Source of the DNA: a virus
DNA: 21,159 bases
Direction: 5' to 3' (one strand)
IMG/VR virus record: IMGVR_UViG_3300037541_000920
Location: 1 to 21,159 of that record
Made by a program: the position numbers and the translations under genes. The notes below the pieces were generated by a model. That model ran no database searches and was not told where the DNA came from. It saw nothing but the letters and a program-made list of their open reading frames with translations. Shown here in pieces: positions 15,884-16,010 of the stretch. The first letter of the stretch is position 1, and every line of letters begins with the position of its first letter.

Positions 15884-16010
15884 AAGGTTAGTAGATGCAA
15901 GTTGACTAAGCTTCGGCATTGTCTATCGTCCCGCCTAAGCAGTTGATAAGTTTCATCAACTACAATATTATCTACTAACCTTTGGCTAACTGTTGATAGA
16001 AAACAGTTAG
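15884..16010 (-). ncRNA. Unrecognised structured RNA between tRNA-Arg and tRNA-Thr
   Basis: A 13-bp perfect stem (15884-15896 with 15970-15982) closes a multi-branch region holding two hairpins: 15941-15947 with 15955-15961 (7 bp, 7-base loop) and 15910-15917 with 15933-15940 (8 positions, one A-G mismatch on the minus strand). On the minus strand a separate 9-bp hairpin (15986-15994 with 16002-16010, 7-base loop) lies just upstream. Its loop holds TCTATC, the exact complement of GATAGA in the 15-base loop of the second inner hairpin, so a 6-bp loop-loop contact is possible. No start codon or frame is apparent. The minus strand is chosen because the flanking tRNAs, whose processing would release it, are on that strand. 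It matches no RNA class I know. Confidence 0.65.

Follow-up and report, generated by a model that had tools for sequence, protein, structure and literature searches.

A previously undescribed phage RNA with a covariation-supported kissing loop near tRNA genes

Comparative sequence analysis confirms a previously undescribed structured phage RNA with a predicted kissing loop at positions 15884-16010 of a 21,159-base IMG/VR virus fragment (the window, that is, the whole stretch of DNA analysed). The window comes from a lake-virus genome; among the relatives of its proteins is a complete lake phage, Actinomycetia phage DSL-LC01 (52% on the proteasome-like protein). The RNA lies between a tRNA-Arg and a tRNA-Thr gene (Table 1), both on the minus strand according to ARAGORN and Rfam, which bears out the placement between two tRNAs given in an earlier note on this DNA. 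Covariation among five distinct sequences supports a fold composed of a 5' hairpin (H1) and a stacked P1-P2-P3 rod, the terminal loop of which is predicted to kiss the H1 loop, and shows that selection has maintained this architecture in all five.

Table 1 Features of the structured RNA and its flanking tRNA genes in the window
Feature	Position	Strand	Remarks
Structured RNA, 127 nt	15884..16010	-	5' end 16010, 3' end 15884
tRNA-Arg(TCT)	16020..16094	-	ARAGORN and Rfam; 9 nt upstream of the 5' end of the structured RNA
tRNA-Thr(TGT)	15799..15873	-	ARAGORN and Rfam; 10 nt downstream of the 3' end of the structured RNA
H1, 5' hairpin	15986..16010	-	9-bp stem 16010-16002/15994-15986
Kissing strand 1 (UCUAUC), in H1 loop	15995..16000	-	pairs with 15922-15927
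P1 5' strand (13 bp)	15970..15982	-	12/13 pairs with double-sided change in at least one homolog
P2 5' strand (AGUUGAU)	15955..15961	-	long-range pairing with 15900-15906; local hairpin as alternative
3' strand of local hairpin (UCAACU)	15941..15946	-	alternative partner of P2 5' strand, window and L117 only
P3	15911..15939	-	stem 15939-15933/15917-15911 (7 bp), 15-nt loop GGGACGAUAGACAAU; 91% of cells paired
Kissing strand 2 (GAUAGA), in P3 loop	15922..15927	-	pairs with 15995-16000
P2 3' strand (GUCAACU)	15900..15906	-	pairs with 15955-15961
P1 3' strand	15884..15896	-	same covarying helix as P1 5' strand 15970..15982

The earlier note had held that this interval carries more structure than expected by chance, and its folding energy agrees, with z-scores of -5.2 on the plus strand and -5.9 on the minus strand relative to dinucleotide shuffles (0/200 shuffles as good). 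The four stems named there are all present in the sequence: a 13-bp stem (AAGGTTAGTAGAT/ATCTACTAACCTT), a 9-bp stem (CTAACTGTT/AACAGTTAG), a 7-bp local hairpin (AGTTGAT/ATCAACT) and a near-perfect 8-bp stem with one mismatch (GCTTAGGC/GCCGAAGC). When the pairs of the five-sequence alignment are read on the tRNA strand, 19 G-U pairs are found versus 2 A-C cells, which identifies the minus strand as that of the functional RNA; the earlier note had specified no strand.

Four divergent homologs, 58-74% identical to the window RNA, were found in IMG/VR contigs of related phages (L117, L007, L144 and L128); pairwise identity among the five distinct sequences spans 58-83%. L117, the first real homolog, was recovered from IMG/VR with a P3-loop pattern and is 77% identical over 128 nt. 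With a covariance model built from the window and L117 (R1), L007, which was not in the model, scored 76 bits (E ~1e-11), as did its near-duplicate L078; after a second pattern scan, the model also matched L144 (68 bits) and L128 (62 bits). A model built from the four relatives only, with the window left out (R2), recovered the window RNA at 102.4 bits (E=4e-19). The covariance search that the earlier note proposed has thus turned up divergent homologs on viral contigs, and stems and loop-loop pair alike show compensatory changes among them. Folded alone, L128 is no better than its shuffles (z -0.75). Several other candidates were rejected. Three contigs (L003-L005) from an exact search for GGCGGGACGATAGACAATGCC were chance matches in protein-coding sequence, and the 30 contigs matching an H1 pattern (TTCTATCAACAGTTAG) and three further contigs from a second H1 pattern were all chance as well. 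The window could also encode a small peptide (MKLINCLGGTIDNAEA), the frame of which is not kept in the L117 and L007 sequences when these are read.

Pair changes were scored in a model-based alignment of the five sequences (A9), as a MAFFT alignment of all five misplaced a gap; the changes are also visible in a MAFFT alignment of four, made free of structure. Across the 41 proposed pairs of H1, P1, P2, P3 and the kissing helix, 96.1% of cells are paired, and this value falls to 22-45% when the partners are slid. Double-sided changes occur in 22/41 pairs compared with a shuffle mean of 10.4, and 0/500 shuffles were as high, a control that may be inflated because there are only five distinct sequences and these are related. 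Eight of the window's nine H1 pairs were modelled, with 4/8 changing on both sides and 97.5% of cells paired. Among unpaired positions, GGGAC in the P3 loop (L3) is invariant in 5/5 sequences, and further invariant unpaired bases, GA-AC and UCA, lie between P2 and P3. These bases are likely to form a contact surface.

The kissing helix retains 6/6 pairs in 5/5 sequences (100% of cells paired), and 2/6 pairs have double changes. It reads UCUAUC/GAUAGA in the window and L117, CCUAUU/AAUAGG in L007 and L144, and CCUAUU/GAUAGG in L128. The earlier note had predicted this interaction from TCTATC and GATAGA, which are exact complements in the two loops. Taken alone, the match is no more than modestly unlikely (2.2% when the two loops are shuffled); covariation in the homologs lends the prediction its support.

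The core of the RNA differs from that first envisaged, which included the 7-bp local hairpin and hence a three-way multi-branch junction. The local hairpin (AGUUGAU/AUCAACU) shows no covariation, and its pair 54-66 is broken in 3/5 sequences. The 5' strand instead pairs long-range with a second, downstream copy of UCARCU to form P2, which has 7 bp in 5/5 sequences and changes on both sides in 3 pairs. L007 and L144 adopt the long-range P2 even when folded as single sequences. For the window and L117, energy minimisation selects the local hairpin; the two pairings compete there, which could represent either a switch or no more than a folding alternative.

The position of the RNA varies among related phages. 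It lies 4-10 nt upstream of a tRNA in 3/5 loci (10 nt in the window, ~4 nt in L144 and L128), with tRNA-Ser(GCT) as the downstream gene at ~4 nt in L128 and L144 and at ~140 nt in L117. An ORF, not a tRNA, precedes the RNA in L144, L007 and L117. In L002 and L007, neighbouring proteins of which are 64-86% identical, the gap between tRNA-Arg and tRNA-Thr is only 6-8 nt and the RNA is not between them. In L007, it sits after tRNA-Thr and an ORF, the 3' end of which it overlaps, and before a hairpin and a KTSC gene; no tRNA adjoins it directly. The KTSC and HslV proteins that flank it are 84-86% identical between L007 and the window, compared with only 59% for the RNA. The comparison thus shows the RNA to be an accessory unit, sited in different gaps among related phages and in most cases directly 5' of a tRNA. 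Simple descent in place explains these positions less well than independent acquisition or movement does. A short GAAY motif before H1 and a GA usually found after P1 recur across the differing contexts, which suggests that they mark the ends of the unit.

Other small features occur at the homologous loci. In L117, the ~140 nt that separate the RNA from tRNA-Ser (7272-7411, minus strand) include an additional stem (GTAGACTG/CAGTCTAC), and this stretch may be another non-coding RNA. Immediately 5' of the RNA, L007 (3018-3302) and L144 (8773-9057) carry a small Cys/His-rich ORF (TLVGGQ...CDGCC), the end of which overlaps hairpin H1 in L007; the window lacks this ORF at that place.

Searches of reference collections returned no known family. 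In Rfam 15, only tRNAs match and no family reaches the gathering threshold for the structured RNA; blastn with three family members as whole elements gave no real match in 50,697 phage records. Two patterns were run against 84,980 bacterial and archaeal genomes, one giving no match and the other 16 matches, none fitting the model. Apart from the homologs reported here, the RNA was not found in whole related contigs, including complete phage DSL-LC01. Given the lack of an Rfam 15 match and the differences from T4 RNA C/D, HDV-like/theta ribozymes and GOLLD/ROOL, all of which are analogues rather than relatives, the RNA is, on these comparisons, a new family within a known but unexplained kind. 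The T4 RNAs C and D (species 1 and species 2) are late RNAs with no known function (PMC9697503). They are stable phage RNAs of 139 and 119 nt encoded on the tRNA strand and share the setting of the window RNA, following tRNA-Arg directly in a tRNA cluster, but their folds differ. They were rejected as relatives in an unfiltered covariance search, where the best match in the T4 tRNA region scored 10 bits and fell outside RNA C/D. The purpose of stable non-tRNA RNAs in phage tRNA clusters, known since T4, is still a puzzle, and the present analysis shows RNAs of this kind to be accessory units whose place differs between phages. The family described here is small and independent of the T4 RNAs; its pseudoknot is supported by covariation, its members are compact and their invariant bases are clear, so chemical probing, pull-down and deletion experiments have exact targets.

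The RNA is probably the product of an accessory non-coding RNA gene of one group of freshwater and estuarine tailed phages, a stable RNA that is cut from tRNA transcripts and acts in trans. It would be transcribed together with the tRNAs, with host RNase Z cutting at the 3' end of tRNA-Arg and host RNase P at the 5' end of the following tRNA (tRNA-Thr or tRNA-Ser). As tRNA processing is generally understood, these cuts would free an RNA of ~130-150 nt (up to 146 nt between the window's two tRNAs); such excision is plausible. The pseudoknot would render the RNA compact and stable, while GGGAC in L3 and GA-AC...UCA between P2 and P3 could serve as the surface for docking in trans to a host or phage protein, or to the ribosome. 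The downstream genes differ among loci (tRNA-Thr, tRNA-Ser, or the hairpin and KTSC gene), so a trans function is favoured and a cis regulator disfavoured. Scans for promoters and terminators gave nothing usable, with promoter-like sites on both strands and no terminator found. A broader and more speculative reading, to which we assign a fairly low probability, is that the RNA represents a mobile phage class that inserts beside tRNA genes, is matured by host tRNA nucleases and acts in trans on a host target not hit by known phage RNAs, possibly with a bistable switch between the local hairpin and long-range P2 in the window/L117 branch. If so, host tRNA nucleases would mature the RNA for free.

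One unlikely alternative to a trans-acting RNA is that it works in cis on the maturation or regulation of the neighbouring tRNAs, for example as a self-cleaving ribozyme or an RNase-directing spacer. Theta ribozymes, which are HDV-like, are pseudoknotted small RNAs that adjoin phage tRNAs and start at most 5 nt from the tRNA 3' end (PMC10879173), and the invariant unpaired bases and pseudoknot of the RNA are typical of small ribozymes; the 4-10-nt spacing upstream of a tRNA at 3/5 loci would also fit a cis element. However, a search relaxed to E<=5 returns no Rfam ribozyme family, and the covariation-supported fold, which has a kissing loop, is not the HDV nested double pseudoknot; an Rfam HDV match is likewise absent. 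Nor does a constant tRNA lie 5' of the RNA at the distance of a theta-like cleavage site, the window RNA beginning 9 nt after tRNA-Arg and an ORF taking the place of the tRNA in L144, L007 and L117. The RNA of L007 has no adjoining tRNA at all and in L117 the next tRNA is ~140 nt away.

The kissing loop could also act between molecules, forming dimers or rings that serve as a scaffold or container, as in phi29 pRNA, OLE, ROOL and GOLLD, a reading to which we give little weight. The covariation of the two loops fits intramolecular and intermolecular pairing alike. OLE, ROOL and GOLLD multimerise via kissing loops, and ROOL and GOLLD, of unknown function, occur near phage tRNA islands (PMC12286853). 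GOLLD and ROOL, which are multimeric, are far larger, however (many GOLLD members exceed 800 nt), whereas the window RNA has only 127 nt and does not match their family models in Rfam 15. The packaging RNA (pRNA) of phi29 is ~120 nt with loop-loop pairing, and resembles the window RNA in both respects; it differs in that H1 of the window RNA lies outside the closing helix, and the window RNA has no Rfam match and belongs to a different kind of phage. The RNA shows no sequence or Rfam relation to OLE, ROOL, GOLLD or pRNA, and H1 and P3 of one molecule are in principle within reach of each other (3-nt linker, stacked rod).

An anti-defence role, in which the RNA would serve as a decoy or inhibitor by mimicking a substrate of some host RNase, tRNase or CRISPR protein, is improbable; the patchy accessory distribution of the RNA and its shifting positions are as expected of arms-race genes, but no resemblance to known defence RNA was found. 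A DNA-level element, whether a miniature transposon whose terminal inverted repeats are 13 bp long or a hairpin used in recombination, is most improbable: the window does hold a perfect 13-bp inverted repeat and the unit does occupy differing sites in relatives, but the repeats change yet stay complementary via G-U on one strand only, unpaired bases are invariant and no target duplication is seen, so that strand asymmetry and kissing-loop covariation largely refute a transposon-like inverted repeat.

The window has three further features of interest on its minus strand. A proteasome/HslV-like protease gene (14585-15205) is a good marker of the phage group, with 276 relatives in IMG/VR. The products of two adjacent genes at 6675-8730 resemble the small subunit of ribonucleotide reductase or ferritin-like proteins; tblastn with the second returned no match among 50,697 phage records, though the related contig L153 has both. 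A second structured element, a near-perfect ~17-bp hairpin with GGGTCTGC in its loop, lies just upstream of the KTSC-domain gene (15736-15787). Its stem and loop are kept in L007 with compensatory changes, and the same place in L002 is taken by a long hairpin with GGGTCTCC.
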